This document shows, piece by piece, positions 3,001 through 50,293 of a stretch of 64,000 nucleotides of DNA; position 1 is the stretch's first letter; each line of letters begins with the position of its first letter. Origin of the DNA: Proteromonas lacertae (taxonomy: Eukaryota; Sar; Bigyra; Opalinata; Proteromonadidae); NCBI GenBank assembly GCA_002245135.1, contig NGBS01000598.1, positions 1 through 64,000 of the forward strand, given 5' to 3'. A model generated the notes under the pieces. The model was not told where the DNA came from and searched no databases. It saw only the letters and a list, made by a program, of their open reading frames with translations. Position numbers and translations under genes: made by a program.

Positions 3001-6000
3001 AATCAAAGTGATAAAGATGAATTACAGAAGAGTAAAGATGAATTACAAAAGAATAAAGATGAATTGGAAAGTGAGTTAAATGGATTGAAAGAGCAATTGA
3101 ATCAATCAAATAGTGATAAAGATGAATTACAGAAGAGTAAAGATGAATTACAAAAGAATAAAGATGAATTAGAAAGTGAGTTAAATGGATTGAAAGAGCA
3201 ATTGAATCAATCAAATAGTGATAAAGATGAATTACAGAAGAGTAAAGATGAATTACAAAAGAATAAAGATGAATTGGAAAGTGAGTTAAATGGATTGAAA
3301 GAGCAATTGAATCAATCAAATAGTGATAAAGATGAATTACAGAAGAGTAAAGATGAATTACAAAAGAATAAAGATGAATTAGAAAGTGAGTTAAATGGAT
3401 TGAAAGAGCAATTGAATCAATCAAATAGTGATAAAGATGAATTACAGAAGAGTAAAGATGAATTACAAAAGAATAAAGATGAATTGGAAAGTGAGTTAAA
3501 TGGATTGAAAGAGCAATTGAATCAATCAAATAGTGATAAAGATGAATTACAGAAGAGTAAAGATGAATTACAAAAGAATAAAGATGAATTAGAAAGTGAG
3601 TTAAATGGATTGAAAGAGCAATTGAATCAATCAAATAGTGATAAAGATGAATTACAGAAGAGTAAAGATGAATTACAAAAGAATAAAGATGAATTGGAAA
3701 GTGAGTTAAATGGATTGAAAGAGCAATTGAATCAATCAAATAGTGATAAAGATGAATTACAGAAGAGTAAAGATGAATTACAAAAGAATAAAGATGAATT
3801 AGAAAGTGAGTTAAATGGATTGAAAGAGCAATTGAATCAATCAAATAGTGATAAAGATGAATTACAGAAGAGTAAAGATGAATTACAAAAGAATAAAGAT
3901 GAATTGAGAAAGTGAGTTAAATGGATTGAAAGAGCAATTGAATCAATCAAATAGTGATAAAGATGAATTACAGAAGAGTAAAGATTGAATTACAAAAGAA
4001 TAAAGATGAATTAGGAAAGTGAGTTAAATGGATTGAAAGAGCAATTGAATCAATCAAATAGTGATAAAGATGAATTACAGAAGAGTAAAGATGAATTACA
4101 AAAGAATAAAGATGAATTAGAAAGTGAGTTAAATGGATTGAAAGAGCAATTGAATCAATCAAATAGTGATAAAGATGAATTACAGAAGAGTAAAGATGAA
4201 TTACAAAAGAATAAAGATGAATTAGAAAGTGAGTTAAATGGATTGAAAGAGCAATTGAATCAATCAAATAGTGATAAAGATGAATTACAGAAGAGTAAAG
4301 ATGAATTACAAAAGAATAAAGATGAATTAGAAAGTGAGTTAAATGGATTGAAAGAGCAATTGAATCAATCAAATAGTGATAAAGATGAATTACAGAAGAG
4401 TAAAGATGAATTACAAAAGAATAAAGATGAATTAGAAAGTGAGTTAAATGGATTGAAAGAGCAATTGAATCAATCAAATAGTGATAAAGATGAATTACAG
4501 AAGAGTAAAGATGAATTACAAAAGAATAAAGATGAATTAGAAAGTGAGTTAAATGGATTGAAAGAGCAATTGAATCAATCAAATAGTGATAAAGATGAAT
4601 TACAGAAGAGTAAAGATGAATTACAAAAGAATAAAGATGAATTAGAAAGTGAGTTAAATGGATTGAAAGAGCAATTGAATCAATCAAATAGTGATAAAGA
4701 TGAATTACAGAAGAGTAAAGATGAATTACAAAAGAATAAAGATGAATTAGAAAGTGAGTTAAATGGATTGAAAGAGCAATTGAATCAATCAAATAGTGAT
4801 AAAGATGAATTACAGAAGAGTAAAGATGAATTACAAAAGAATAAAGATGAATTAGAAAGTGGAGTTAAATGGATTGAAAGAGCAATTGAATCAATCAAAT
4901 AGTGATAAAGATGAATTACAGAAGAGTAAAGATGAATTACAAAAGAATAAAGATGATTGGAAAGTGAGTTAAATGATGAAAGAGCAATTGAATCAATCAA
5001 ATAGTGATAAGATGAATTACAGTGAATTACAAAAGAATAAAGATGAATTAGAAAGTGAGTTAAATGGATTGAAAGAGCAATTGAATCAATCAAATAGTGA
5101 TAAAGATGAATTACAGAAGAGTAAAGATGAATTACAAAAGAATAAAGATGAATTGGAAAGTGAGTTAAATGGATTGAAAGAGCAATTGAATCAATCAAAT
5201 AGTGATAAAGATGAATTACAGAAGAGTAAAGATGAATTACAAAAGAATAAAGATGAATTAGGAAAGTGGAGTTAAATGGATTGAAAGAGCAATTGAATCA
5301 ATCAAATAGTGATAAAGATGAATTACAGAAGAGTAAAGATGAATTACAAAAGAATAAAGATGAATTAGAAAGTGAGTTAAATGGATTGAAAGAGCAATTG
5401 AATCAATCAAATAGTGATAAAGATGAATTACAGAAGAAGTAAAGATGAATTACAAAAGAATAAAGATGAATTAGAAAGTGAGTTAAATGGATTGAAAAGA
5501 GCAATTGAATCAATCAAATAGTGATAAAGATGAATTACCAGAAGAGTAAAGATGAATTACAAAAGAATAAAGATGAATTAGAAAGTGAGTTAAATGGATT
5601 GAAAGAGCAATTGAATCAATCAAATAGTGATAAAGATGAATTACAGAAGAGTAAAGATGAATTACAAAAAGAATAAAGATGAATTAGAAAGTGAGTTAAA
5701 TGGATTGAAAGAGCAATTGAATCAATCAAATAGTGATAAAGATGAATTACAGAAGAGTAAAGATGAATTACAAAAGAATAAAGATGAATGAGAAAGTGAG
5801 TTAAATGGATTGAAAGAGCAATTGAATCAATCAAATAGTGATAAAGATGAATTACAGAAGGAGTAAAGATGAATTACAAAAGAATAAAGATGAATTGAAA
5901 GTGAGTTAAAATGGATTGAAAGAGCAATTGAATCAATCAAATAGTGATAAAGATGAATTACAGAAGAGTAAAGATGAATTACAAAAGAATAAAGATGAAT

Positions 6001-6960
6001 TGGAAAGTGAGTTAAATGGATTGAAAGAGCAATTGAATCAATCAAATAGTGATAAAGATGAATTACAGAAGAGTAAAGATGAATTACAAAAGAATAAAGA
6101 TGAATTGAAAGTGAGTTAAATGGATTGAAAGAGCAATTGAATCAATCAAATAGTGATAAAGATGAATTACAGAAGAGTAAAGATGAATTACAAAAGAATA
6201 AAGATGAATTGGAAAGTGAGTTAAATGGATTGAAAGAGCAATTGAATCAATCAAATAGTGATAAAGATGAATTACAGAAGAGTAAAGATGAATTACAAAA
6301 GAATAAAGATGAATTAGAAAGTGAGTTAAATGGATTGAAAGAGCAATTGAATCAATCAAATAGTGATAAAGATGAATTACAGAAGAGTAAAGATGAATTA
6401 CAAAAGAATAAAGATGAATTGGAAAGTGAGTTAAATGGATTGAAAGAGCAATTGAATCAATCAAATAGTGATAAAGATGAATTACAGAAGAGTAAAGATG
6501 AATTACAAAAGAATAAAGATGAATTGGAAAGTGAGTTAAATGGATTGAAAGAGCAATTGAATCAATCAAATAGTGATAAAGATGAATTACAGAAGAGTAA
6601 AGATGAATTACAAAAGAATAAAGATGAATTAGAAAGTGAGTTAAATGGATTGAAAGAGCAATTGAATCAATCAAATAGTGATAAAGATGAATTACAGAAG
6701 AGTAAAGATGAATTACAAAAGAATAAAGATGAATTGGAAAGTGAGTTAAATGGATTGAAAGAGCAATTGAATCAATCAAATAGTGATAAAGATGAATTAC
6801 AGAAGAGTAAAGATGAATTACAAAAGAATAAAGATGAATTAGAAAGTGAGTTAAATGGATTGAAAGAGCAATTGAATCAATCAAATAGTGATAAAGATGA
6901 ATTACAGAAGAGTAAAGATGAATTACAAAAGAATAAAGATGAATTGGAAAGTGAGTTAAA
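1..6960 (+). repeat. 105-bp tandem repeat array (about 66 copies)
   Basis: A 105-bp unit is repeated head to tail from the window edge to about 6960, where unique coding sequence begins. Each unit encodes 35 residues that start LKEQLNQSNSDKDELQ and end LESELNG. Copies are nearly identical. The commonest difference is a silent TTA/TTG Leu codon before GAAAGTGAG. Several copies have 1-bp deletions or insertions (for example near 431, 508, 764, 1148, 2111, 2568, 3005, 3905, 5437 and 5860), and a few have larger rearrangements near 1226 and 2392-2435. The array starts outside the window, so the copy number is a minimum. Confidence 0.97.
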
Positions 6961-11949: not shown

Positions 11950-14241
11950 TTAGCTGAAACTAGCCATTCCTTCACAAGCTGTTCCATAATATCCATCAAA
12001 GCAATTACATGTTCCTGTCTTATAATCACAAATACCTCTTCCACTGCAATCTCTATATTCATCACCTTCAACCAGATTTGTTGCTTTACTTGGATCTTCA
12101 TCAGAAGGACATTCATCTATTCATAATAATTATAATAATAACATAATATATATACATAAACTACAATCTGGACCTCTATGACCTTCATCACATATACAAC
12201 CAAATATCTTACTATCAAATGGTTCACTTACAGATTGAGTAAATTCTGTAGAAGGAGTTGGTTTAGGACCTGACCAAACTTCCTTTATATCATATCCTAA
12301 TGCCTCAGTTAATACGACACATCGACCATTATTATTACAGTTATTTGGACAAGAAGTTCTTTGACAAGCATCACCTTCAAATCCTTCATAACATTCACAT
12401 TGACCTGTTTCTCTATTACAATTACCTTGACCACTACACTCAATAAATGCATGTGGAGCATATTCTACAAATTGGAATATACCAACATCAATTTTATCAC
12501 CATCTTTTAATTCTCTTTCATCCCATAATCTTCTACCACCAGCTGATGTTCCTTCTTCTCCTGTACTATCACTACCTTCATCAGGATTACTAGTACTTCC
12601 TTCACTAGTAGGACCATCATTATCATCAGGATCAGGACTTGTTGCATTCATATCAACTGCTTTTGGTATTTCAATTACTAACTCTCCTTTACCATTTATT
12701 CCTCCTTTATCAATAGTAATTGTTTGTGATGTACCTAAACTACCTGTAGTTGGATCATATGGAGTATAAATCATCTTTCCACCTGGAATTATACTCTTTT
12801 GAAGATCACCAATTGGTCGATTTATTGAATATGATTTTCCACTTACTAAACTGGGAGACTCCTTATAATTGATTACATAATCACCATCTTCATTTTCTAT
12901 CAGTGTAGCAAGAATTACAGTTGATCCTTCAGTATATTTAGTGAAATAATAATCTCCTCCTCTTTCACCAACTAAGGAAAAGATATCAGAATCTTCAATC
13001 TTTGCATCTTTACTACCTAAATAGAAACATGCACTATTTATATCCTCTAATTCACTAGCTGGACCAGCTACATACACATCACAATTAGTTCTATCACCAT
13101 TACATGTAGTAGGATTTGGATCATCTTTTGTATTCAAACATTGTAATTCTAATTCTAATAATTTCATTTTGAAGAAGTTATTATCTTTTGGATTCTCTGA
13201 TTCTATACACCACATCTTAGTAGTTCCACCATTTAGTATTGATGTTTGACCACAAGTAATTGGATTTTCTACTAACATTCTACCTGGTGAGCCAGTAGTC
13301 TTAGATTTATAAAGTGAATTCTAATTTATTTCTCATACCTTGAGTAACTGTATAAGCAACACCATCAATAGCTTTTCCTGTAGAATCTTTTACTTTAGTT
13401 ACAATAGGTGTAGATGCAAAATTAATAGTTGGTGAAGTTTCTGCATATGATTTTGGTTTTTCAGCTATTTTTATATTTGTCACATCAACAATTCCTAATT
13501 GATTAAACACATCTTCTAATGTAGAATATTCTATTTTATTTTTGTCAGTATAATCAACAGTAACTTTACCAATTATTTCACCAGTCTTTTCATTGAATAT
13601 AATTATCTCTGATGAAACTGTATCATTCTTATCATAAACAGTTGTACTATTCAGCAACTGTAATGAATTCTTGTTAATATCGTTATCTTTTTCTTTTTCT
13701 GGTAATGTATTAATTGGTGGTGGAGTTACAATTATTGGTGGTTTAGTTATTATCTCTGGAGTTGTTGTTGTTGGTCCAGCTGTGGTTGGTGCTTTTGTTG
13801 TTGGTTTTGTGGTTGGATCTACTTTTCCATCATCAGGAGTTGTGGAATCATCATTGTCAGCATTATCACCAGCCAGCTTGTCTTCCATTATCAGATTCAA
13901 ATAATAATCGAGGTTCATTACCTTTCTTTATTAGTTCTTTAATAAATTTCAGATTTTCAAGATTAGCATCATGATCTGGTGTTGTTTTGAATATATCATA
14001 TGAAAATGATTGACCTTTTGGACAAGTTCCTAAAATACTAATAGTTTCATTACTTTATACTCAAAGAACAGTCAGCACCAGTCCAAGAAAATTCATCAAA
14101 TGCACCTTTGTTTAAACCTAAACCTGGTTGAGTATTACAAACACATTTACCGTTTGAAGAACAAGTGCCGTGTCCACTACATAGATTAGGGCAATCTGAG
14201 TTCACAAGCAAATAGATGAAGAATAGATACAAGTATTTCAT
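11950..14241 (-). CDS. Secreted EGF-repeat protein A (tandem paralog 1 of 3)
   Basis: A secreted protein with tenascin-type EGF modules at both ends. [16 protein letters not shown] is a signal peptide, followed by a first EGF module ([17 protein letters not shown]). A short intron leads to a CPKGQSF motif, a Thr/Pro-rich linker ([17 protein letters not shown]) likely O-glycosylated, a larger family-specific domain, then [28 protein letters not shown] and a final [10 protein letters not shown] module. The last exon (after an intron near 12118-12162) ends at a TAA at 11952-11950. Two frame breaks, near 13886 (GG run) and near 13300-13315, are each healed by one base and match continuous reading in the paralogs, so they look like sequence errors. 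Cell wall, cyst wall or surface adhesion are possible roles; none is shown. Confidence 0.85.
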
Positions 14242-14285
14242 CCAAAAAACGAAAAAGAAATATTATCGTAACTACACAATACAAT

Positions 14286-14298
14286 AATACACTGTATT
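14286..14298 (-). promoter_or_regulatory. Shared upstream palindrome, EGF gene A
   Basis: The 13-bp near-perfect palindrome AATACACTGTATT lies 45 bp upstream of the gene A start codon. The same sequence (as AATACAGTGTATT on the opposite strand) precedes genes B and C. A TTACGAT-like heptamer is also nearby in each case. It is a candidate transcription factor site or core promoter element. Confidence 0.5.
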
Positions 14299-14404
14299 TT
14301 TGTATTTTTTATTTTTTTGATTATTTCATCATATGGTGTATATAAATGAATAATATAGTTAAGAACAAATAATAATAATTTAAAAATTATAGAATACAAA
14401 TTTA

Positions 14405-16501
14405 TTATTGCACTGTAGCTGTAGTTTCACAAGCTGTTCCATAAAAACCATCAAAACATGTACACAATCCAGTAGTATAATCACAAATACCTCTTCCACT
14501 GCAATCTCTATATTCTGGATGTTCAAGATCATTTGTAGCACCTTTTGGATCTTTATCAGAAGGACATTCATCTATTCATAATAAATAATAATATAATATA
14601 TACATAAACTACAATCAGCACCACGATGACCTTCATCACATATACAACCATACAATTTAGTATCAAAACTATCTTCATTAGGCTTATCAACAGCAGCATT
14701 AGTAACTCCTAATGCTTCAGTTAATACGACACATCGACCATTATTATTACAGTTATTTGGACAAGAAGTTCTTTGACAAGCATCACCTTCAAATCCTTCA
14801 TAACATTCACATTGACCTGTTTCTCTATTACAATTTCCTTGACCACTACACTCTATAAATGCATGAGGTCCTGCATTCTTTATTATTTTAAGTATATAAA
14901 TTGGATCATTTTCATCATTATCAGCTAACATTCTATTTGGTTCTGTATCTGTTCCTTCTTCTGTAGAATTACCTGTAGTATTTGGTCTTAATGGATTATT
15001 AACAGGTGAAACAATAGTAATACTATCCAAACCTTCACCATATTTAAATGATTTCACAGTGGTTGTTATTGTATCTCCAAATTCACCATCTACATAGGGT
15101 GTTATTTGTATTGTAGCTCCTTCTACTAATGCTAATTCAATCTCACCCATTGGTCTATCTTTATATTGATATGAATTACTATTACCAGGTATAAGTGATG
15201 GTACACTCTGTAAATCTAATGTAATAGTGGTAGTTTCATCATCATAATCAGAATCTTCTTTCTCTTTTGCTACTATCACTGTAGCTTCATTATTATATCT
15301 TCCAAAGTAATAATCACCTCCTTTATTACCTACATATGCATATATTTCACTAGATTGTATTGGAATATTGACATCCCCTAGGAAGAAACAAGGTCCTTGA
15401 ATATCATTCACATCTTCAGCAGTGGCATATAATTCATAATTATTACCTTCACATATTACATTAATTACCATTTGTTTCATTCTATAGTAATAAGATACTG
15501 CAGGATTCTCAGATTCAATACAATAAAATGAACCTATTTTATCATCTGCAGTAGAAGTACATTCACCACTTAACATTCTACGTCTTGATCCTCCTAATCC
15601 TAACCTTTCTCTAATAACTTTATTATTATCAACTTTACTTAATGGAAGATAAACTAATTCAGTTTTTACTTTTCTACCATCAGCTTTAGTGAAATCACCT
15701 TTTTCAGATGATGCAGTTGCTAATGTAGATAATAAATCAAATGATGGAGCAGATTCTTCTTTTCTTTTAATTTGAATAGTTCCACAATATATATCTTCAT
15801 CAATTGAAGTAATTCCTAATGTCTCTAATAAATCACCTACATTCGCATTATTTGGATCATTTACTATCATATTTCCTAAAAATATGCCACTTTCACCTTT
15901 ATAACATGATATTGTATAGGATTTGATTGTAGTAACTTCATTATCTTCAAATACTCCTTCTAATGCATCATTTAATGATTTTTCTTTTGCTTCTTCTGCT
16001 ACTGTTGGTGCTTGTGTAGTTGGTGGTATTGTTATTGGTGCTTCTGTAATAATTGGAGGTGAAGTTGTAGTTGGAACTGCTGTTGTTGCTGCTACAGTTG
16101 TGGTTGGTTGTTCTTCCGGTTCTCCAGTTGATTCTTCTGTTCCAGCATCCATTTCTCTATCTGATTCAAATAATTGCCTTCGTGAACCACCATCTAAATT
16201 CAATTTTTTTAATGTTCCCATATTAACTGATGATTGTACAGTACCGTCATTGTTTAAATCGTAGTATGTGAATGATTGTCCTTTTGGACACAATCCTAAA
16301 GAGATAATAACAATATATACTTTCAGAACAATCGGCTCCCGTCCAGATAACTTCTGTTGATGATCCTTTATTTATACCTAAACCCGGTTGACGATTACAA
16401 TCACATACACCATTTGTCCCACATGTTCCGTGTCCACTACAAAGATTAGGGCATTCTGAGTTCACAAGCAAAACTATGAAGAACAGATATAAGTATTTCA
16501 T
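14405..16501 (-). CDS. Secreted EGF-repeat protein B (tandem paralog 2 of 3)
   Basis: Same architecture as its neighbours and the only one of the three without an apparent frame break. Signal peptide [16 protein letters not shown], first EGF module [15 protein letters not shown], a 25-bp intron, [16 protein letters not shown], the LFESD motif, a Thr/Pro-rich linker ([17 protein letters not shown]), a central family-specific domain with [15 protein letters not shown] and a [12 protein letters not shown] motif, then the C-terminal EGF block ([36 protein letters not shown]). An intron near 14576-14609 precedes the last exon, which ends in TAA at 14407-14405. It is a good reference for reading the frame in genes A and C. 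Secretion is well supported by the signal peptide and paired cysteines; the central domain matches nothing I recognise. Confidence 0.88.
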
Positions 16502-16533
16502 TTCCTAAATGTTACGATAAAAAAACAACTAAA

Positions 16534-16546
16534 AATACAGTGTATT
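16534..16546 (-). promoter_or_regulatory. Shared upstream palindrome, EGF gene B
   Basis: AATACAGTGTATT, the same 13-bp palindrome as at genes A and C, begins 33 bp upstream of the gene B start codon. GTTACGAT lies between it and the start. It is a candidate co-regulatory element. Confidence 0.5.
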
Positions 16547-16677
16547 GAGTGTATTTAAGGTATTGAGAATAAAAGTATAACAGAGATGATTGTATTATGA
16601 ATTTTATATTTAACAAATACAACAATCATATATATATTAAGAAATAATAATAATAATAATAATAAAATATAAACAAT

Positions 16678-18847
16678 TTATTGTAACATTGCTTGTGTTT
16701 CACATCCACTACCATAATAACCACTGAAACATTTACATATACCGGTAGTATAATCACAAATACCTCTTCCACTACAATCTCTATATTCATCATCACCACC
16801 TTCACCATTTGTTGCACCATTAGGATCTTTATCAGATGGACATTCAATCAAACTACAATCTGGTCCTCTAAAACCACCATCACATTCACAACCATAGAAT
16901 TTACTTTCGAAATTATCTTTACCAACATCATTAGGAGTTTGTTTAACTGGATCTTCTATTTGCATTTCCACACATCGACCATTATTATTACAGTTATTTG
17001 GACAAGAAGTTCTTTGACAAGCATCACCTTCAAATCCTTCATAACATTCACATTGACCTGTTTCTCTATTACAATTTCCTCTTCCACTACACTCAATAAA
17101 TGCATGTGGACCTGCAGTTTCTACAACTACTAAAGCTAATGGATCAATAACTTCTAACATTCTACCTTGATAATCTTCCCATAACGATCTATCAGTTCCA
17201 GTTTCCTTCAGCATTAGTATTGTCATCCTCATCCTCAATTAATGTTCCATTATTAGCAATTGGATTTGATGGAGATACTGTAATAGTTAATTTTAAACCA
17301 CCATCACTACTACTTATACCTGCAGATTGTACTGTAGTCTTGATTGGTCGAGAGAAAGTACCTGTATCTCTATCATATATTTGAAGAGTCATTGGAGCTC
17401 CAGGTGTAGTAGCAACTTCAATATCACCAACTGGACGGTTAGTATAAGAATAACTATTATCACTTTTTACTACCATACTTGGTACTGTTATCTAAATCTA
17501 AAGTAATTGTTGTATCACCTTCTAAATCTCCACCTTCTCCATCATTTATAGCAGATACAATAGTAGCAGCTTTCTGATTAAATCTAGCGAAATAATAATA
17601 ACCATCACTCTTTCCAATCCATGGATATATCTCTGAATATGGTAATTGAGTTTCCACATCACCAAAGAAATAACATATTCCATCAATATTATCCATCTCA
17701 TTGACAGATACTTGTAATAATAATGAATTGTTTTCACACTTTACTTGTCCTGGTATTTTCTGCATTCTATAGAAACTAGCACCATCATTAGGATTCTCAG
17801 ATTCAACACATAAATATTCATAATAAACTTTATTGCCTTCTCCTATTCCATAACAAGCACTAGCATTATCATTTAACATTCTACCCTTTGTATCTGGAAT
17901 AATATCTCCATAAACATCTTTTAATTTACTAATTATATCATCTACATTTACATTATCACTATTTAATTCAGTCTGATATACATAATCCTTAACAACTTTA
18001 CCAGATGATGTTATTATTTCCACAGGTGAAGAAGATTTTTTATTAGGATCTTTTGGGTTTAATGCAGATGGTTTGCTTACTTTTGATGATGTATATGGAA
18101 TATTACAATTAATAATGGCATTAGCATCATTAATACCAAACTTATCAAGTAATACAGATGTATTAGGCATACCTTCTTTCATTTCTATAGTCATTTCACC
18201 TAAATATATATCCAAATTCTTTCCTAAATAACATCTCAATACTACATATTCAACATCATCTGGAAGATCCTTTAAAATTGGTAAATTCTCATCTAGAGGA
18301 AGACTACTTATATTTCCACTAATAGGAACTGTTGGTGCTTCTGTAGCAATGATTGGAGCTTCAGTTATGATTGGAGGTGATGTAGTATTAGCTGAAGTTG
18401 GTGAAGCTGTTGTTGTTGTTTGACTGTCACCACCATCATCACCACCTGCTTCAGTTGGTGTTCCTTCACCTTCTGCAGCTTCAGCAGCAGCTTTTCTATC
18501 ATTATCAGATTCAAACAATAATCTAACTCTTTCAGTTTTTTGTACATTTGTATTTAATTCTCCATATGTTTTAATATTTGTGTTGGTTGTCTTAGTAACT
18601 TCACCATCAAAAGAAAAAGTCATTCCCTTTGGACAAGTCCCTAAAATAATAAAAATAAATGAATACTCTCAGAACAATCATAGCCAGTCCATGCAAACTC
18701 ATCAAAAGCTCCTTTATTTAAACCTAAACCAGGTTGACGATTGCAGGTACAAGTTCCATCTTGGTTACAACTTCCATGTCCACTACATAGATTTGGACAA
18801 GCTGCATAAGCAGACAATGCTAAAAGAACGAAATATAGAGTTTTCAT
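16678..18847 (-). CDS. Secreted EGF-repeat protein C (tandem paralog 3 of 3)
   Basis: Third copy of the EGF family. Signal peptide MKTLYFVLLALSAYAA, first EGF module [15 protein letters not shown], one short intron, CPKGMTFSFDG, LFESD, an acidic Ala/Gly/Thr-rich linker with SPPIITEAP, the CVESENPNDG and YYFARFNQK motifs of the central domain, then [28 protein letters not shown] and [16 protein letters not shown] at 16680-16678. Unlike A and B it has no intron before the last module (DCSLIECPSD is continuous). Two frame breaks, near 17485 and at the AAA run near 17202, are each fixed by one base, restoring VPSMVVKSDN and AEGTGTDRS. It is expected to be secreted together with its paralogs. Confidence 0.85.
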
Positions 18848-18869
18848 TCTTTGTGGTTTACGATGATTT

Positions 18870-18882
18870 AATACAGTGTATT
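18870..18882 (-). promoter_or_regulatory. Shared upstream palindrome, EGF gene C
   Basis: AATACAGTGTATT lies 23-35 bp upstream of the gene C start codon, identical to the element at gene B and the complement of that at gene A. A TTTACGATG sequence is adjacent. Confidence 0.5.
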
Positions 18883-19023
18883 CTTTTGTATAGTTGTATT
18901 TATTTTTATCTCTTTACCTATTACCTTTTGCTCTATGCAATTCCAGATTTTTTATACCTTCAAACATGATATTCAGTATTTTGAAGTTAAAAAACACAAA
19001 TAATACTAAATAGAATTATTAAA

Positions 19024-38192: not shown

Positions 38193-41100
38193 TTATTTCT
38201 GATGAATATTCTTGTTTTCTTTCATTCTCAAAACTATTTCTTTATTCTTCTTTTCTGTTGCTTTTGTTGTTGACATTCCAAATTTACCACCAATTGTATC
38301 ATCTTTAAATACTGGCATTCCACATCTCTCTGACCTTTTAGGTTTTTGATTTTTAAAATCTCTAAAACATTCTACCCATTTCTTACATATTTCTACTCCA
38401 CTTTCATCTTCTATTTTCATATGAACTTTTCTTTCAGTTTCACCAACTTCAAATGTCTTTAAATTTGATTCACTCACTTTCAATATCAATGTAAATTCAT
38501 TACTTCCTTCATTATATTCAATTCCATTATAACAATCTAATGGAATACTTTGTTTCTCATCTAAATATACTTTACCATAATAACTAGGAATCATTGATTC
38601 ATAGATTCTTAATACAGCTGGTTCATAATATAATACACAATATCTCTTTTGCCATTTATCCATTATTCTATTTGTCCCTTCTTTCAATAAATAGCCTTCC
38701 ATTATTACTTTATAACTGAATGGTTTGTAAATATCTTCATCTGTTACTTCATTCTCTTGTTTTATCTTTTCGATTGGAATAACAGTTTCCATTATCTTTT
38801 GACTCTTTTCTATTACCTTCTTTGTTGAATGATTGTATACTGAAATATACACAACAGCTCCAATTATTCCAATTAATAATAAACAGCCAATTACAATCAA
38901 TAATATTGCCCACCAATTCTTCTTTGCCCAGGAATCTTCTTCTTTTGCATTACTTGGAGGTTCTGGTTTATCTTCAGGTATTTCTTGAGGTATATCACCA
39001 ATTTGTGTCATAACTATATTATAATTCTCTGGATCTTTCTTTATATTGTTTTTTTGAGAAGATAATGTAATATCCTTTACTACTTCTTTAAATGTATTTT
39101 TCTCTGTTAAATTTTTTACTAATTGACCTACTGGAGATGCTAGTATTTCAGGTGGAATTTCTCCTAATGTATCTGTTATACTATTATTAATGTCTTGACT
39201 AATATCTTCATCTGTCTTTGAACTGTCTATATAACTATCACTTGGAGCAACTACTGTTAATAAAGTATTTACAAATTCGATTGGATCTTCTAAGTTTTTA
39301 ATCTGCGACCAAATATCATCTGTACTAGAAGCATCACTCATTTTCCTGTTTTTGTTGTTATTTAAGATTTCTTCTCTACTATTTTTATCTGGATAACTAC
39401 TATCTTCTATATATGTAATCATTATTCTGATCTTTTTTTCTTTTATATCATCTACACTACTTTTATCTTCAATCCAGTATGGACTTCCAGTGAATAATTG
39501 TTTTAAAGCACCAACAAATACATCTACAAAAGCAGAAAACAAACTATTATCTTCTCCACTACTAATAAATGAATAAACTGCTTGAACTTTTGTACAATAT
39601 TCTTTCGTATAATTTCTATCACAACATAATCCTTGAGGATCAAGATCATATTGACATGAATCTATAATCAATAAATAAATAGAATATATATACCTCCATG
39701 AAATACGTTAATAATATAAGATATTTCCAAATTTGGATTTTCACTTTTAAATTTAGCAATTACAGGAGTTGTATCAGTTTCTTCTTCAACAGTTATATTT
39801 GTTATTTTCAAATCATCCCATTTGAATAATGTAGTATTTGTTTTGCTTGTATCATCAGGTTCTAATCTAAATTTGTCTTTGTTTTTTCCATCTAAATTTA
39901 TCTTCATGGTTAATGTTTGTCTTTGATCAATCAATTCTGTTTCATTAAAACCACTCACTATAGGATAACTTGCAACTATTTTTGCTTCAAATTCAGAAGA
40001 AGAATTAACCATAACTGGAACTTTAGATGCATATCTATTAAAATAAGGTTTATATTCAACTACTGCGATTGTTACAATAGCCTTACCTACAATACCATTG
40101 TTTTCACAATTAATCTCACATTTTACATAATTAATTACTCTGCTAGTATCAACTGATATATTACCATCATTTTTAAATGATATAACATTACTATTTTTTA
40201 CACATTTAGGTTCATAATAATTATAGTTTCTATATACTGGTATAATATCAATGAAATATGTTTCTTTTGATTGTATGAATTTATAATTTGACTTCTCATA
40301 TGGACAACTAATTACATCAATAGGTGAATCAGTAGCTTCTTCAGTTGCTTCAATAAGTGTGCTTTCACATATATGACCATCAATATAATTATCAACAGTG
40401 ACTCTTTCAGAGATTCCATTCGTTGGAGCAGTATAACCATCAAGTCCACTTACAATTTCATATACATTTTCAGATGTTCTTTTTATTTGAATTTTTAGAA
40501 CTATTCAAAAATAACAATAAGAATATACTTGCTGATGTTTCACAACTCTCTCCACAAGGAGTAAGCTTATTGGTTGTCTTATCACATTCTCCACTTACAT
40601 CACTATCAATAGCATTAATATTCCACTCACTATATGTTCTATCATAACTATTAGTCTTTACAGCAGAATAAATATAGAATTTGTTTGATGATTGCTTTAC
40701 AACGACTAATTTCGAATCGGTTAAATATAATATATCTCTATTTTTAGCAGTTATTCTTAAATAACTACCAGCTGGAACTATTTCACTTTTACTACTACCT
40801 GAACAATATGTTCCATCAATATATTTATCAACAGTTGCTTTGTCTGTTGATTCTTTTATATCAGTATATGGAATTGTTGAACCTGTAACAAATGAATATC
40901 CATCAACAGTTTTCTGAATTTTTATCAATTTATCTATTTATTTTATAAATTATTATATTTTTATAGTTATTATATACTTGTTTCGTCTTTACATTCATCT
41001 CCACTACAGGCAGTAAATACATTTTCTTTACAAGTTCCACTTACACTATTAACAATACCATCAATACTATATTCAGTATGATCTGCTTTATTACCTGGTA

Positions 41101-44100
41101 AATCAGATCTACGAACACCATAAACATAAATCTCTCCTGTTGTTTTGGTTCTAACAAAGTTCTTGTCTGTCAAATATAATGTATCATCTCCATCTTTCAT
41201 TTCCAAATAACTACCAGCTGGAACTATTTCACTTTTACTACTACCTGAACAATATGTTCCATCAATATATTTATCAACAGTTGCTTTGTCTGTTGATTCT
41301 TTTATATCAGTATATGGAATTGTTGAACCTGTAACAAATGAATATCCATCAACAGTTTTCTGAATTTTTATCAATTTATCTATTTATTTTATAAATTATT
41401 ATATTTTTATAGTTATTATATACTTGTTTCGTCTTTACATTCATCTCCACTACAGGCAGTAAATACATTTTCTTTACAAGTTCCACTTACACTATTAACA
41501 ATACCATCAATACTATATTCAGTATGATCTGCTTTATTACCTGGTAAATCAGATCTACGAACACCATAAACATAAATCTCTCCTGTTGTTTTGGTTCTAA
41601 CAAAGTTCTTGTCTGTCAAATATAATGTATCATCTCCATCTTTCATTTCCAAATAACTACCAGCTGGAACTATTTCACTTTTACTACTACCTGAACAATA
41701 TGTTCCATCAATATATTTATCAACAGTTGCTTTGTCTGTTGATTCTTTTATATCAGTATATGGAATTGTTGAACCTGTAACAAATGAATATCCATCAACA
41801 GTTTTCTGAATTTTTATCAATTTATCTATTTATTTTATAAATTATTATATTTTTATAGTTATTATATACTTGTTTCGTCTTTACATTCATCTCCACTACA
41901 GGCAGTAAATACATTTTCTTTACAAGTTCCACTTACACTATTAACAATACCATCAATACTATATTCAGTATGATCTGCTTTATTACCTGGTAAATCAGAT
42001 CTACGAACACCATAAACATAAATCTCTCCTGTTGTTTTGGTTCTAACAAAGTTCTTGTCTGTCAAATATAATGTATCATCTCCATCTTTCATTTCCAAAT
42101 AACTACCAGCTGGAACTATTTCACTTTTACTACTACCTGAACAATATGTTCCATCAATATATTTATCAACAGTTGCTTTGTCTGTTGATTCTTTTATATC
42201 AGTATATGGAATTGTTGAACCTGTAACAAATGAATATCCATCAACAGTTTTCTGAATTTTTATCAATTTATCTATTTATTTTATAAATTATTATATTTTT
42301 ATAGTTATTATATACTTGTTTCGTCTTTACATTCATCTCCACTACAGGCAGTAAATACATTTTCTTTACAAGTTCCACTTACACTATTAACAATACCATC
42401 AATACTATATTCAGTATGATCTGCTTTATTACCTGGTAAATCAGATCTACGAACACCATAAACATAAATCTCTCCTGTTGTTTTGGTTCTAACAAAGTTC
42501 TTGTCTGTCAAATATAATGTATCATCTCCATCTTTCATTTCCAAATAACTACCAGCTGGAACTATTTCACTTTTACTACTACCTGAACAATATGTTCCAT
42601 CAATATATTTATCAACAGTTGCTTTGTCTGTTGATTCTTTTATATCAGTATATGGAATTGTTGAACCTGTAACAAATGAATATCCATCAACAGTTTTCTG
42701 AATTTTTATCAATTTATCTATTTATTTTATAAATTATTATATTTTTATAGTTATTATATACTTGTTTCGTCTTTACATTCATCTCCACTACAGGCAGTAA
42801 ATACATTTTCTTTACAAGTTCCACTTACACTATTAACAATACCATCAATACTATATTCAGTATGATCTGCTTTATTACCTGGTAAATCAGATCTACGAAC
42901 ACCATAAACATAAATCTCTCCTGTTGTTTTGGTTCTAACAAAGTTCTTGTCTGTCAAATATAATGTATCATCTCCATCTTTCATTTCCAAATAACTACCA
43001 GCTGGAACTATTTCACTTTTACTACTACCTGAACAATATGTTCCATCAATATATTTATCAACAGTTGCTTTGTCTGTTGATTCTTTTATATCAGTATATG
43101 GAATTGTTGAACCTGTAACAAATGAATATCCATCAACAGTTTTCTGAATTTTTATCAATTTATCTATTTATTTTATAAATTATTATATTTTTATAGTTAT
43201 TATATACTTGTTTCGTCTTTACATTCATCTCCACTACAGGCAGTAAATACATTTTCTTTACAAGTTCCACTTACACTATTAACAATACCATCAATACTAT
43301 ATTCAGTATGATCTGCTTTATTACCTGGTAAATCAGATCTACGAACACCATAAACATAAATCTCTCCTGTTGTTTTGGTTCTAACAAAGTTCTTGTCTGT
43401 CAAATATAATGTATCATCTCCATCTTTCATTTCCAAATAACTACCAGCTGGAACTATTTCACTTTTACTACTACCTGAACAATATGTTCCATCAATATAT
43501 TTATCAACAGTTGCTTTGTCTGTTGATTCTTTTATATCAGTATATGGAATTGTTGAACCTGTAACAAATGAATATCCATCAACAGTTTTCTGAATTTTTA
43601 TCAATTTATCTATTTATTTTATAAATTATTATATTTTTATAGTTATTATATACTTGTTTCGTCTTTACATTCATCTCCACTACAGGCAGTAATACATTTC
43701 TTTACAAGTTCCACTTACACTATTAACAATACCATCAATACTATATTCAGTATGATCTGCTTTATTACCTGGTAAATCAGATCTACGAACACCATAAACA
43801 TAAATCTCTCCTGTTGTTTTGGTTCTAACAAAGTTCTTGTCTGTCAAATATAATGTATCATCTCCATCTTTCATTTCCAAATAACTACCAGCTGGAACTA
43901 TTTCACTTTTACTACTACCTGAACAATATGTTCCATCAATATATTTATCAACAGTTGCTTTGTCTGTTGATTCTTTTATATCAGTATATGGAATTGTTGA
44001 ACCTGTAACAAATGAATATCCATCAACAGTTTTTCTGAATTTTTATCAATTTATCTATTTATTTTATAAATTATTATATTTTTATAGTTATTATATACTT

Positions 44101-47100
44101 GTTTCGTCTTTACATTCATCTCCACTACAGGCAGTAAATACATTTTCTTTACAAGTTCCACTTACACTATTAACAATACCATCAATACTATATTCAGTAT
44201 GATCTGCTTTATTACCTGGTAAATCAGATCTACGAACACCATAAACATAAATCTCTCCTGTTGTTTTGGTTCTAACAAAGTTCTTGTCTGTCAAATATAA
44301 TGTATCATCTCCATCTTTCATTTCCAAATAACTACCAGCTGGAACTATTTCACTTTTACTACTACCTGAACAATATGTTCCATCAATATATTTATCAACA
44401 GTTGCTTTGTCTGTTGATTCTTTTATATCAGTATATGGAATTGTTGAACCTGTAACAAATGAATATCCATCAACAGTTTTCTGAATTTTTATCAATTTAT
44501 CTATTTATTTTATAAATTATTATATTTTTATAGTTATTATATACTTGTTTCGTCTTTACATTCATCTCCACTACAGGCAGTAAATACATTTTCTTTACAA
44601 GTTCCACTTACACTATTAACAATACCATCAATACTATATTCAGTATGATCTGCTTTATTACCTGGTAAATCAGATCTACGAACACCATAAACATAAATCT
44701 CTCCTGTTGTTTTGGTTCTAACAAAGTTCTTGTCTGTCAAATATAATGTATCATCTCCATCTTTCATTTCCAAATAACTACCAGCTGGAACTATTTCACT
44801 TTTACTACTACCTGAACAATATGTTCCATCAATATATTTATCAACAGTTGCTTTGTCTGTTGATTCTTTTTATATCAGTATATGGAATTGTTGAACCTGT
44901 AACAAATGAATATCCATCAACAGTTTTCTGAATTTTATCAATTTATCTATTTATTTTATAAATTATTATATTTTTATAGTTATTATATACTTGTTTCGTC
45001 TTTACATTCATCTCCACTACAGGCAGTAAATACATTTTCTTTACAAGTTCCACTTACACTATTAACAATACCATCAATACTATATTCAGTATGATCTGCT
45101 TTATTACCTGGTAAATCAGATCTACGAACACCATAAACATAAATCTCTCCTGTTGTTTTGGTTCTAACAAAGTTCTTGTCTGTCAAATATAATGTATCAT
45201 CTCCATCTTTCATTTCCAAATAACTACCAGCTGGAACTATTTCACTTTTACTACTACCTGAACAATATGTTCCATCAATATATTTATCAACAGTTGCTTT
45301 GTCTGTTGATTCTTTTATATCAGTATATGGAATTGTTGAACCTGTAACAAATGAATATCCATCAACAGTTTTCTGAATTTTTATCAATTTATCTATTTAT
45401 TTTATAAATTATTATATTTTTATAGTTATTATATACTTGTTTCGTCTTTACATTCATCTCCACTACAGGCAGTAAATACATTTTCTTTACAAGTTCCACT
45501 TACACTATTAACAATACCATCAATACTATATTCAGTATGATCTGCTTTATTACCTGGTAAATCAGATCTACGAACACCATAAACATAAATCTCTCCTGTT
45601 GTTTTGGTTCTAACAAAGTTCTTGTCTGTCAAATATAATGTATCATCTCCATCTTTCATTTCCAAATAACTACCAGCTGGAACTATTTCACTTTTACTAC
45701 TACCTGAACAATATGTTCCATCAATATATTTATCAACAGTTGCTTTGTCTGTTGATTCTTTTATATCAGTATATGGAATTGTTGAACCTGTAACAAATGA
45801 ATATCCATCAACAGTTTTCTGAATTTTTATCAATTTATCTATTTATTTTATAAATTATTATATTTTTATAGTTATTATATACTTGTTTCGTCTTTACATT
45901 CATCTCCACTACAGGCAGTAAATACATTTTCTTTACAAGTTCCACTTACACTATTAACAATACCATCAATACTATATTCAGTATGATCTGCTTTATTACC
46001 TGGTAAATCAGATCTACGAACACCATAAACATAAATCTCTCCTGTTGTTTTGGTTCTAACAAAGTTCTTGGTCTGTCAAATATAATGTATCATCTCCATC
46101 TTTCATTTCCAAATAACTACCAGCTGGAACTATTTCACTTTTACTACTACCTGAACAATATGTTCCATCAATATATTTATCAACAGTTGCTTTGTCTGTT
46201 GATTCTTTTATATCAGTATATGGAATTGTTGAACCTGTAACAAATGAATATCCATCAACAGTTTTCTGAATTTTTATCAATTTATCTATTTATTTTATAA
46301 ATTATTATATTTTTATAGTTATTATATACTTGTTTCGTCTTTACATTCATCTCCACTACAGGCAGTAAATACATTTTCTTTACAAGTTCCACTTACACTA
46401 TTAACAATACCATCAATACTATATTCAGTATGATCTGCTTTATTACCTGGTAAATCAGATCTACGAACACCATAAACATAAATCTCTCCTGTTGTTTTGG
46501 TTCTAACAAAGTTCTTGTCTGTCAAATATAATGTATCATCTCCATCTTTCATTTCCAAATAACTACCAGCTGGAACTATTTCACTTTTACTACTACCTGA
46601 ACAATATGTTCCATCATATATTTATCAACAGTTGCTTTGTCTGTTGATTCTTTTATATCAGTATATGGAATTGTTGAACCTGTAACAAATGAATATCCAT
46701 CAACAGTTTTCTGAATTTTTATCAATTTATCTATTTATTTTATAAATTATTATATTTTTATAGTTATTATATACTTGTTTCGTCTTTACATTCATCTCCA
46801 CTACAGGCAGTAAATACATTTTCTTTACAAGTTCCACTTACACTATTAACAATACCATCAATACTATATTCAGTATGATCTGCTTTATTACCTGGTAAAT
46901 CAGATCTACGAACACCATAAACATAAATCTCTCCTGTTGTTTTGGTTCTAACAAAGTTCTTGTCTGTCAAATATAATGTATCATCTCCATCTTTCATTTC
47001 CAAATAACTACCAGCTGGAACTATTTCACTTTTACTACTACCTGAACAATATGTTCCATCAATATATTTATCAACAGTTGCTTTGTCTGTTGATTCTTTT

Positions 47101-50100
47101 ATATCAGTATATGGAATTGTTGAACCTGTAACAAATGAATATCCATCAACAGTTTTCTGAATTTTTATCAATTTATCTATTTATTTTATAAATTATTATA
47201 TTTTTATAGTTATTATATACTTGTTTCGTCTTTACATTCATCTCCACTACAGGCAGTAAATACATTTTCTTTACAAGTTCCACTTACACTATTAACAATA
47301 CCATCAATACTATATTCAGTATGATCTGCTTTATTACCTGGTAAATCAGATCTACGAACACCATAAACATAAATCTCTCCTGTTGTTTTGGTTCTAACAA
47401 AGTTCTTGTCTGTCAAATATAATGTATCATCTCCATCTTTCATTTCCAAATAACTACCAGCTGGAACTATTTCACTTTTACTACTACCTGAACAATATGT
47501 TCCATCAATATATTTATCAACAGTTGCTTTGTCTGTTGATTCTTTTATATCAGTATATGGAATTGTTGAACCTGTAACAAATGAATATCCATCAACAGTT
47601 TTCTGAATTTTTATCAATTTATCTATTTATTTTATAAATTATTATATTTTTATAGTTATTATATACTTGTTTCGTCTTTACATTCATCTCCACTACAGGC
47701 AGTAAATACATTTTCTTTACAAGTTCCACTTACACTATTAACAATACCATCAATACTATATTCAGTATGATCTGCTTTATTACCTGGTAAATCAGATCTA
47801 CGAACACCATAAACATAAATCTCTCCTGTTGTTTTGGTTCTAACAAAGTTCTTGTCTGTCAAATATAATGTATCATCTCCATCTTTCATTTCCAAATAAC
47901 TACCAGCTGGAACTATTTCACTTTTTACTACTACCTGAACAATATGTTCCATCAATATATTTATCAACAGTTGCTTTGTCTGTTGATTCTTTTATATCAG
48001 TATATGGAATTGTTGAACCTGTAACAAATGAATATCCATCAACAGTTTTCTGAATTTTTATCAATTTATCTATTTATTTTATAAATTATTATATTTTTAT
48101 AGTTATTATATACTTGTTTCGTCTTTACATTCATCTCCACTACAGGCAGTAAATACATTTTCTTTACAAGTTCCACTTACACTATTAACAATACCATCAA
48201 TACTATATTCAGTATGATCTGCTTTATTACCTGGTAAATCAGATCTACGAACACCATAAACATAAATCTCTCCTGTTGTTTTGGTTCTAACAAAGTTCTT
48301 GTCTGTCAAATATAATGTATCATCTCCATCTTTCATTTCCAAATAACTACCAGCTGGAACTATTTCACTTTTACTACTACCTGAACAATATGTTCCATCA
48401 ATATATTTATCAACAGTTGCTTTGTCTGTTGATTCTTTTATATCAGTATATGGAATTGTTGAACCTGTAACAAATGAATATCCATCAACAGTTTTCTGAA
48501 TTTTTATCAATTTATCTATTTATTTTATAAATTATTATATTTTTATAGTTATTATATACTTGTTTCGTCTTTACATTCATCTCCACTACAGGCAGTAAAT
48601 ACATTTTCTTTACAAGTTCCACTTACACTATTAACAATACCATCAATACTATATTCAGTATGATCTGCTTTATTACCTGGTAAATCAGATCTACGAACAC
48701 CATAAACATAAATCTCTCCTGTTGTTTTGGTTCTAACAAAGTTCTTGTCTGTCAAATATAATGTATCATCTCCATCTTTCATTTCCAAATAACTACCAGC
48801 TGGAACTATTTCACTTTTACTACTACCTGAACAATATGTTCCATCAATATATTTATCAACAGTTGCTTTGTCTGTTGATTCTTTTATATCAGTATATGGA
48901 ATTGTTGAACCTGTAACAAATGAATATCCATCAACAGTTTTCTGAATTTTTATCAATTTATCTATTTATTTTATAAATTATTATATTTTTATAGTTATTA
49001 TATACTTGTTTCGTCTTTACATTCATCTCCACTACAGGCAGTAAATACATTTTCTTTACAAGTTCCACTTACACTATTAACAATACCATCAATACTATAT
49101 TCAGTATGATCTGCTTTATTACCTGGTAAATCAGATCTACGAACACCATAAACATAAATCTCTCCTGTTGTTTTGGTTCTAACAAAGTTCTTGTCTGTCA
49201 AATATAATGTATCATCTCCATCTTTCATTTCCAAATAACTACCAGCTGGAACTATTTCACTTTTACTACTACCTGAACAATATGTTCCATCAATATATTT
49301 ATCAACAGTTGCTTTGTCTGTTGATTCTTTTATATCAGTATATGGAATTGTTGAACCTGTAACAAATGAATATCCATCAACAGTTTTCTGAATTTTTATC
49401 AATTTATCTATTTATTTTATAAATTATTATATTTTTATAGTTATTATATACTTGTTTCGTCTTTACATTCATCTCCACTACAGGCAGTAAATACATTTTC
49501 TTTACAAGTTCCACTTACACTATTAACAATACCATCAATACTATATTCAGTATGATCTGCTTTATTACCTGGTAAATCAGATCTACGAACACCATAAACA
49601 TAAATCTCTCCTGTTGTTTTGGTTCTAACAAAGTTCTTGTCTGTCAAATATAATGTATCATCTCCATCTTTCATTTCCAAATAACTACCAGCTGGAACTA
49701 TTTCACTTTTACTACTACCTGAACAATATGTTCCATCAATATATTTATCAACAGTTGCTTTGTCTGTTGATTCTTTTATATCAGTATATGGAATTGTTGA
49801 ACCTGTAACAAATGAATATCCATCAACAGTTTTCTGAATTTTTATCAATTTATCTATTTATTTTATAAATTATTATATTTTTATAGTTATTATATACTTG
49901 TTTCGTCTTTACATTCATCTCCACTACAGGCAGTAAATACATTTTCTTTACAAGTTCCACTTACACTATTAACAATACCATCAATACTATATTCAGTATG
50001 ATCTGTTTTATTACCTGGTAAATCAGATCTACGAACACCATAAACATAAATCTCTCCTGTTGTTTTGGTTCTAACAAAGTTCTTGTCTGTCAAATATAAT

Positions 50101-50293
50101 GTATCATCTCCATCTTTCATTTCCAAATAACTACCAGCTGGAACTATTTCACTTGTTTGTAGTGATCCTATTAAATATTAGTACTTAAACTATACTTTGA
50201 CTGTTTATATCAGTCCCATATACACTCAAAATGATTAGCAATACTATTGCAACAATATATACGATATTCTATACTCACTATAACAACTTTCAT
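38193..50293 (-). CDS. Giant type I membrane protein: signal peptide, ~20 identical ectodomain repeats, TM, PH domain
   Basis: One gene on the minus strand, about 3,700 residues by inference. A hydrophobic start (NIVYIVAIVLLIILSVYG, ATG at 50293 tentative) joins through a 28-bp intron (50168-50195) to a truncated first repeat. Twenty full 134-residue repeats follow, each one exon, then a divergent repeat (40529-40928) and a more distant one (ICESTLIEATEEATD region). Unique extracellular sequence comes next (VINYVKCEINCENNGIVG..., CQYDLDPQGLCCDRNYTKEYC), then a membrane helix (WWAILLIVIGCLLLIGIIGAVVYISVY) and a cytoplasmic PH domain (VIMEGYLLKEGTNRIMDKWQKRYCVLYYEP ... CKKWVECF). The repeat has four Cys and many beta-prone stretches. 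A surface receptor or adhesin that signals through or anchors to phosphoinositides is a reasonable inference; no known family is recognised. Several copies carry 1-bp frame breaks, likely sequencing errors. Confidence 0.82.
40970..50154 (-). repeat. 446-bp tandem exon-plus-intron repeat array (20 full copies and one partial)
   Basis: Units start every 446 bp (40970, 41416, 41862 ... 49444) and a partial unit ends at 50154. Each unit holds 402 coding bases (134 codons, exactly in frame) and a 44-bp phase-1 intron beginning GTATATAATAACT and ending AAATAG. Copies are virtually identical, introns included. The one substitution I saw is in the 5'-most unit (GCT to ACT codon, Ala to Thr, near 50007). 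Small indels occur at about 43690-43700, 44032, 44868, 44933, 46070, 46616 and 47924, mostly in homopolymers. Confidence 0.97.

Follow-up and report, generated by a model that had tools for sequence, protein, structure and literature searches.

A probable single-pass surface receptor of Proteromonas lacertae with a homogenised array of orphan-domain exons and a constant PH tail

The window, a stretch of 64,000 nucleotides from Proteromonas lacertae (contig NGBS01000598.1, positions 1 to 64,000), carries a real gene on its minus strand at 50293–38193, to which gene modelling on the window sequence assigned 26 exons. The very large predicted product opens with a signal peptide and one truncated unit, continues through 20 units and then a diverged one, and leads on to a membrane-proximal region, a single transmembrane (TM) helix, and a PH domain. 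Based on the gene model and hydropathy, exon 1 (50275–50293, minus strand, as are all features below) encodes the start codon and the first part of the signal peptide, and exon 2 (50196–50243) encodes the remainder (nominal MKVVIV-I-LLIILSVYG). The truncated first unit lies in the 270-nt exon 3 (49898–50167) of the gene model and is followed by exons 4–23 (40934–49853), which are 20 exon–intron copies of the unit, each nominally a 402-nt exon of 134 codons with a 44-nt intron. All 25 introns are in phase 1 in the nominal model, so that the gain or loss of units leaves the reading frame intact. The GTATA...ATAG intron type is backed by intron presence and absence among tandem EGF-type paralogues within the window. 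Thus, the model predicts one gene, as the first-pass annotation had proposed; a separate gene for each unit was ruled out by the 44-nt spacers, the phase-1 ends, and the lack of a start in each unit.

The tandem array extends in full from 40759 to 50154 (TRF), with a period of 446 bp, 21.1 copies, and 99% identity, which matches the exon–intron unit of about 20 copies noticed in the first pass. No base substitutions were found among the 20 full copies, 15 of which are exact in the exon register, and a 31-base stretch common to exons 3 and 24 brackets the array. Near-identical exon-plus-intron units therefore stand in tandem here, as in concerted exon–intron array genes. The longest frame per unit is 135 codons, which exceeds chance (at most 99 in 2000 shuffles), and the GC content at the three codon positions is 0.41, 0.41, and 0.10. 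The genome is AT-rich, and a core rhizarian origin was rejected because successive polyubiquitin units join with no insertion between them. The unit, whose DNA is present only in the window gene and in a second contig (C937), encodes four Cys and no glycosylation sequon.

The first-pass statement that the unit always has 134 codons and stays in frame over 20 copies does not hold for the sequence as assembled: eight one-base indels are spread over seven of the 20 copies, and five unit exons (8, 11, 12, 15, and 17) lose the frame. These indels are probably consensus errors, as typical of long-read data, because every one of the eight alters the length of a base run by one (one of them doubles a single C); a real gene defect may nevertheless lie behind the frame breaks. 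Could the number of copies itself be an artefact of assembly, with 20 over- or under-counting the true array? An 8.9-kb run of identical 446-bp copies is difficult for an assembler to resolve. However, unique, in-frame sequence marks the array at either edge, the same gene on a separate contig has units of this kind, and other loci have arrays of other units, so that we regard this explanation as very unlikely.

The unit, of about 134 residues, appears to be an orphan domain, since it had no match in the libraries searched. Its alignment (A1) held 23 members, four of the 27 non-redundant units having been left out (one frame-broken, three weak). A Pfam search on the unit gave no match that covered more than one of the 23 members or had an E value below 0.055, and a typed two-unit query gave only weak matches below the cut-off (best MurT_C, E 0.0037), none of which we believe. 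NCBIfam returned no matches for three proteins. Searching the PDB with the units yielded nine rows up to E 10, and the best (E 0.0083 over 31 positions) was judged to be chance; a homologous-protein search with the 23 units found no relative among 570 candidates. The structure prediction called for in the first pass was run on the window sequences, and its mean pLDDT of 36.5 was too low to give a fold.

Downstream of the array, the gene model places a diverged unit in exon 24 (40529–40933), the first 135 codon positions of which are partly identical to the unit (identity reaching as far as 40759) and the remainder different. Exon 25 (39694–40500) encodes the end of the unit region and the first part of the membrane-proximal ectodomain, with five N-glycosylation sequons, and exon 26 (38193–39661) encodes the second part, the TM helix, the PH domain, the tail, and the stop. 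Exons 24–26 are open in the window copy. Hydropathy of the predicted protein shows one signal peptide and a single strong TM helix (38850–38906; Kyte–Doolittle mean of 3.25 over 19 residues), consistent with the surface topology proposed earlier; the repeat protein would accordingly be located at the cell surface. The PH domain (38364–38708, Pfam PF00169), also recognized in the first pass, scored 25.9 bits on the 504-aa frame and 28.5 bits on a shorter piece, against a cut-off of 25.1.

The PH fold is a seven-stranded barrel with a C-terminal helix, and the phosphoinositide-binding type has basic residues in its first strands (a K...R pattern). All eight family members in an alignment of this region (A3) matched PF00169, and a conserved W close to the end of the match is compatible with a PH fold, although no proof of it. 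As to the basic pattern, K84 and R97 are invariant in the eight rows, but the position after W is occupied by Q rather than K/R in the rows that bear W. At E ≤ 0.01, the only PDB sequence relative was pleckstrin 2 (E 0.0095); the 504-aa frame had no PDB match at E ≤ 1 and no homologous protein at E ≤ 0.01 among 8000 scored. Weak Pfam rows on exon 26, DUF4944 (E 0.00085) and ECM10, fell below the cut-off and are not believed. Searches of prokaryote and viral contigs with A3 gave 87 and 59 pattern matches, respectively, none of which was confirmed. Relatives outside this genome (P0001) keep the membrane-proximal Cys motif, the TM helix, and the PH domain.

Within the genome, the PH tail occurs at 50 loci on 41 contigs, with haplotig pairs counted apart and the nine weakest of 69 match rows left out; among the best 60 of these 69 matches, 53 cover most of the PH domain, and several PH-tail matches contain stops. 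Exons 25 and 26 also have counterparts at other family loci. Consequently, the sequence following the repeats, which the first-pass annotation had called unique, does follow them but is not strictly unique. Four of the 13 other loci examined have their own arrays of the orphan domain (488 bp × 7.0, 533 × 14.4, 538 × 8.9, and 450 × 11.9). One sister-locus array is about 70 units long, and many frame breaks occur distally in the C959 array. The family loci C611, C251, C551, and C1042 have few or no units. The parts also occur separately, as four of 13 family or unit loci, including C998, lack either the PH domain or the units; C998 and C787 are predicted to be PH-less, hydrophobic-tailed proteins that would share the putative binding domain with the PH-tailed receptors. 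Mean unit identity is 90–100% within a gene compared with 20–43% between genes (four array genes measured, C959 not being covered; units whose profile matches were short or weak were omitted, as was a window piece with a broken frame). These values indicate that the arrays are homogenised gene by gene.

Contig C937 covers the same locus, with flank divergences of 0.38 and 1.41%. It has two full units compared with 21 in the window, which supports the length variability suggested earlier. Between the contigs, the ectodomain is hypervariable (9.69% divergence), with dN/dS values of 0.75, 1.01, 1.10, and 1.27 in its pieces (pairwise counts, for which it is uncertain which units of one contig correspond to which of the other). 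The TM–PH part, with a dN/dS of 0.07 by pairwise counts, was shown to be under purifying selection. No donor for the diverged blocks of C937 was found in the family loci examined. Gene conversion from an examined paralogue was also rejected: at the threshold used, two of the three C937 blocks had no match other than themselves, and it is the window version that lies closer to the paralogues. C937 may be a recent duplicate rather than an allele.

In C937, exon 25 is interrupted by a stop and exon 26 by frame breaks, and because the window copy also has frame breaks, either copy, or both, may be non-functional. A decaying family, in which array expansion and frame breaks mark pseudogenes, would also account for the breaks in the distal C959 array and the stops in PH-tail matches. 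We nevertheless consider this improbable, since the window indels are all run-length changes accompanied by no substitutions, the mark of consensus error, exons 24–26 are open, and the TM–PH part is strongly constrained between contigs.

Could the repeats instead form a mechanical spacer, a rigid or elastic stalk without a specific ligand that holds a cell coat or holdfast, with the PH domain merely anchoring the tail at the inner leaflet and length changing by neutral array drift? Recent slippage or unequal exchange would produce twenty identical units without selection, and the great length of the sister array and the sequon-free unit with four Cys would fit a stalk. However, the ectodomain outside the array differs as well, with dN/dS near 1 and a constrained TM–PH part, and four family loci carry few units or none. 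A spacer is therefore rather doubtful.

We favor, with a probability of roughly 0.6, a receptor that spans the cell-surface membrane once and belongs to a large, fast-changing multigene family, combining a string of orphan domains, exon-array turnover, and a constant PH tail. The best reading is that these are polymorphic, multivalent contact receptors whose ectodomains would evolve by exon-array turnover behind that tail. The ectodomain would consist of about 21 orphan domains of about 134 residues with four Cys, each encoded by one exon between phase-1 introns. Unequal exchange would add, remove, and homogenise units, and because each exon–intron unit adds 402 coding bases, such turnover would keep the frame. 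The string may present a binding face that varies, as does its distance from the membrane, and its many identical sites would allow multivalent binding to prey, to another cell, or to a surface; this recognition role is a proposal. The membrane-proximal region and TM helix would then relay a signal to the cytoplasmic PH domain, which is strongly conserved and may dock on a membrane phosphoinositide or a protein partner. More tentatively, and with the odds against it, the family might serve self/non-self, mating, or prey recognition in this flagellate. The loci would then be polymorphic, their allele-specific ectodomains diversified by array turnover and block exchange, and the constant TM–PH part would pass contact on to the local phosphoinositide state; C998 and C787 would be the PH-less partners.

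To our knowledge, few of the large receptor families in heterotrophic protists have been described. Variant surface receptors of the PfEMP1 type have a constant intracellular part, a highly variable ectodomain, and many paralogues. The present family is alike in all three respects but has no shared domain that we could find, and its tail is a PH domain. PF00169 itself is a known superfamily; here it differs in placement, following directly on the lone TM helix of a receptor with repeats. The material covered in our literature search held no description of a TM–PH repeat receptor, and such a layout was likewise not found in Pfam, NCBIfam, or the PDB, in keeping with the first-pass remark that no family of this kind was described.

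LPA encodes kringle domains in a secreted plasma protein without a TM helix or PH domain. Its human kringle IV type 2 region repeats a near-identical, intron-bearing, domain-coding unit within one gene, as in the window gene, with 1–40 units per allele; however, that unit is 5.6 kb with two exons (PMC11462820), compared with the 446-bp, one-exon unit here. The multigene SmPoMuc family of Schistosoma is similar in its tandem, homogenised exon–intron units: an exon with its flanking introns is repeated up to 20 times, is homogenised by concerted evolution, and gives rise to polymorphic surface or secreted proteins, with Coccidioides SOWgp and spider silk genes cited alongside (PMC2576457). It differs in having a 27-bp exon encoding a short mucin repeat rather than a folded-size Cys domain of 134 residues, and the text consulted reports no PH tail (PMC2576457).

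One family in P. lacertae thus unites a domain unmatched in the libraries searched, exon arrays that are homogenised separately in each gene, and a constant TM–PH tail; this tail suggests that only a short step separates contact outside the cell from lipid signalling at the membrane. Because two contigs cover one locus, its diversification is open to direct testing, and structural and ligand studies have a well-defined object in the 134-residue unit, which is identical from copy to copy.

Tandem-repeat detection placed an array of a 446-bp repeat at 40759–50154, inside a 26-exon gene model on the minus strand (50293–38193). Exons 1–2 encode a signal peptide (mean hydropathy 2.21), exon 3 a truncated unit, exons 4–23 the units and exon 24 a diverged unit, followed by exon 25 (807 nt) and exon 26 (1469 nt). 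Among the 20 full array copies we observed no substitutions and eight one-base indels, each altering a base run by one and together spread over seven copies. The assembled sequence was used unaltered, with no base restored, and as assembled 5 of the 20 unit exons (8, 11, 12, 15 and 17) lose the frame. With the units taken as 402 nt, arithmetic on the model gives a predicted product of 3685 residues. Exon 3 matches the unit from 50154 onward with a single base different, exon 24 matches it exactly as far as 40759, and the two matching parts have about 31 bases of the unit in common. The 446-bp unit could have come from a tandem duplication between the stretches so shared. A search of the organism's own genome (50.2 Mb, 1181 contigs) found unit DNA nowhere else except on C937, a second contig covering this locus.

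All 25 introns are phase 1 in the nominal model and have the form GTATA...ATAG (28–44 nt). Such a stretch occurs in two of the three tandem EGF-rich secreted protein genes at 12000–18900 (minus strand) and is missing at the same place in one copy. Because the copy without it matches the others in residues after excision (DCSLYEC vs. DCSLIEC), the comparison supports reading these stretches as introns in the Proteromonas lacertae genome.

A single strong transmembrane (TM) stretch (mean hydropathy 3.25) lies in exon 26, ahead of the pleckstrin homology (PH) domain. Each unit has four cysteines and no sequons; five sequons lie in exon 25 and four in exon 26, where one falls past the TM helix. 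The PF00169 match scores 25.9 bits against a cut-off of 25.1 (28.5 bits with a shorter piece), and all eight members of the TM-PH alignment match this family. Pleckstrin 2 (E 0.0095) was the only PDB match to the alignment at E ≤ 0.01. The first-strand lysine K84 and R97, an arginine past the conserved W/F region, are invariant. When these residues are compared with the strict phosphoinositide motif of PH domains, the motif appears incomplete, because Q follows W.

C937 (12889 bp) is collinear with 54058–32721, array excepted, and is likely the other allele. It carries a truncated unit and two full units, both differing from the window's repeated unit. The left flank, right flank and TM-PH region differ at 53/3747 (1.41%), 21/5465 (0.38%) and 9/742 (1.21%) positions, whereas exons 25–26 upstream of the TM differ at 151/1558 (9.69%), and around exon 24 the identity of 100-base windows drops as low as 57%. 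Pairwise counts from this one contig pair gave a dN/dS of 0.07 for TM-PH, in contrast to 0.75 for exon 25, 1.01 for exon 26 residues 1–90, and 1.10 and 1.27 for the units; a further value was 0.79 over 24 codons. In C937, exon 25 holds a stop and exon 26 frame breaks.

Could the repeats multiply contacts at the cell surface? The analysis establishes the gene's anatomy, its family, the arrays and the contrast in divergence. We infer that the product is a surface receptor making multivalent contact, with the constant PH tail as output; the main competing explanation is that the repeats form a spacer without a ligand.

The 504-residue frame of the gene had 69 own-genome matches. Among the best 60, 53 covered at least 80 of the 115 PH residues, at 50 loci on 41 contigs; near-identical contig pairs were counted separately, and there are therefore fewer genes than loci. 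Outside the genome, the TM-PH profile matched five metagenomic proteins (E ≤ 0.001, 5380 candidates); one of them, P0001, combines the Cys motif with TM and PH. Two contigs (C589, 73406–75448; C1101, 2169–4211) each showed two PH-region matches in a single frame, possibly tandem PH domains. C1042 carries an inverted pair of near-identical TM-PH genes (76155 and 81232) with another type of ectodomain.

Ectodomains were surveyed at 13 other fetched loci. Tandem arrays were present at four: C1113 (488 bp × 7.0), C856 (533 bp × 14.4), C266 (538 bp × 8.9) and C959 (450 bp × 11.9, counted inside the fetched part). Array units of the first three contain a candidate phase-1 GTATA...ATAG intron; the C959 unit comprises 150 codons without one. 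Units matching the commonest exactly numbered 4/4 in C1113, 4/7 in C266, 7/14 in C856 and 3/11 in C959; homogeneity is imperfect in some arrays, not in all. The intronless C959 array precedes the TM-PH exon and extends off the contig end, its unit matches spanning 65554–97330 (31.8 kb, about 70 units); stops or frame shifts interrupt many of these units nearing that end. C759, C139, C1010 and C937 have a few diverged units, and C998 has units and a hydrophobic C-terminus with no PH seen. Units were not found at the fetched loci of C611, C251, C551 and C1042, where the ectodomain is STP-rich or other sequence. Mean unit identity within genes was 100% in C1113 and C266, 95% in the window gene, 90% in C856 and 23–41% in C1010, C937, C759 and C998; between genes it was 20–43%. 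A gene on C787 (locus L054, 511–1316) encodes a unit domain and a hydrophobic C-terminal tail, with no PH seen.

As for the host, we lean towards a stramenopile. Its genome has flagellar-type SHIPPO repeats; two enolases (L047, L048), one with a mitochondrial-type N-terminal presequence and the other with an insertion; a divergent 18S rRNA (L053, 367–2111, minus strand) with an odd 530-loop stretch, TAATACCATCATTACAAGCG; and the tandem EGF-type proteins, which we take to resemble stramenopile mastigoneme proteins. Tandem rDNA occurs on many contigs (29 matches). At 1–6960, the window holds 105/210-bp tandem repeats (66 copies, 96%) that on the plus strand encode KDEL/Q-rich, coiled-coil-like sequence with several frame breaks.
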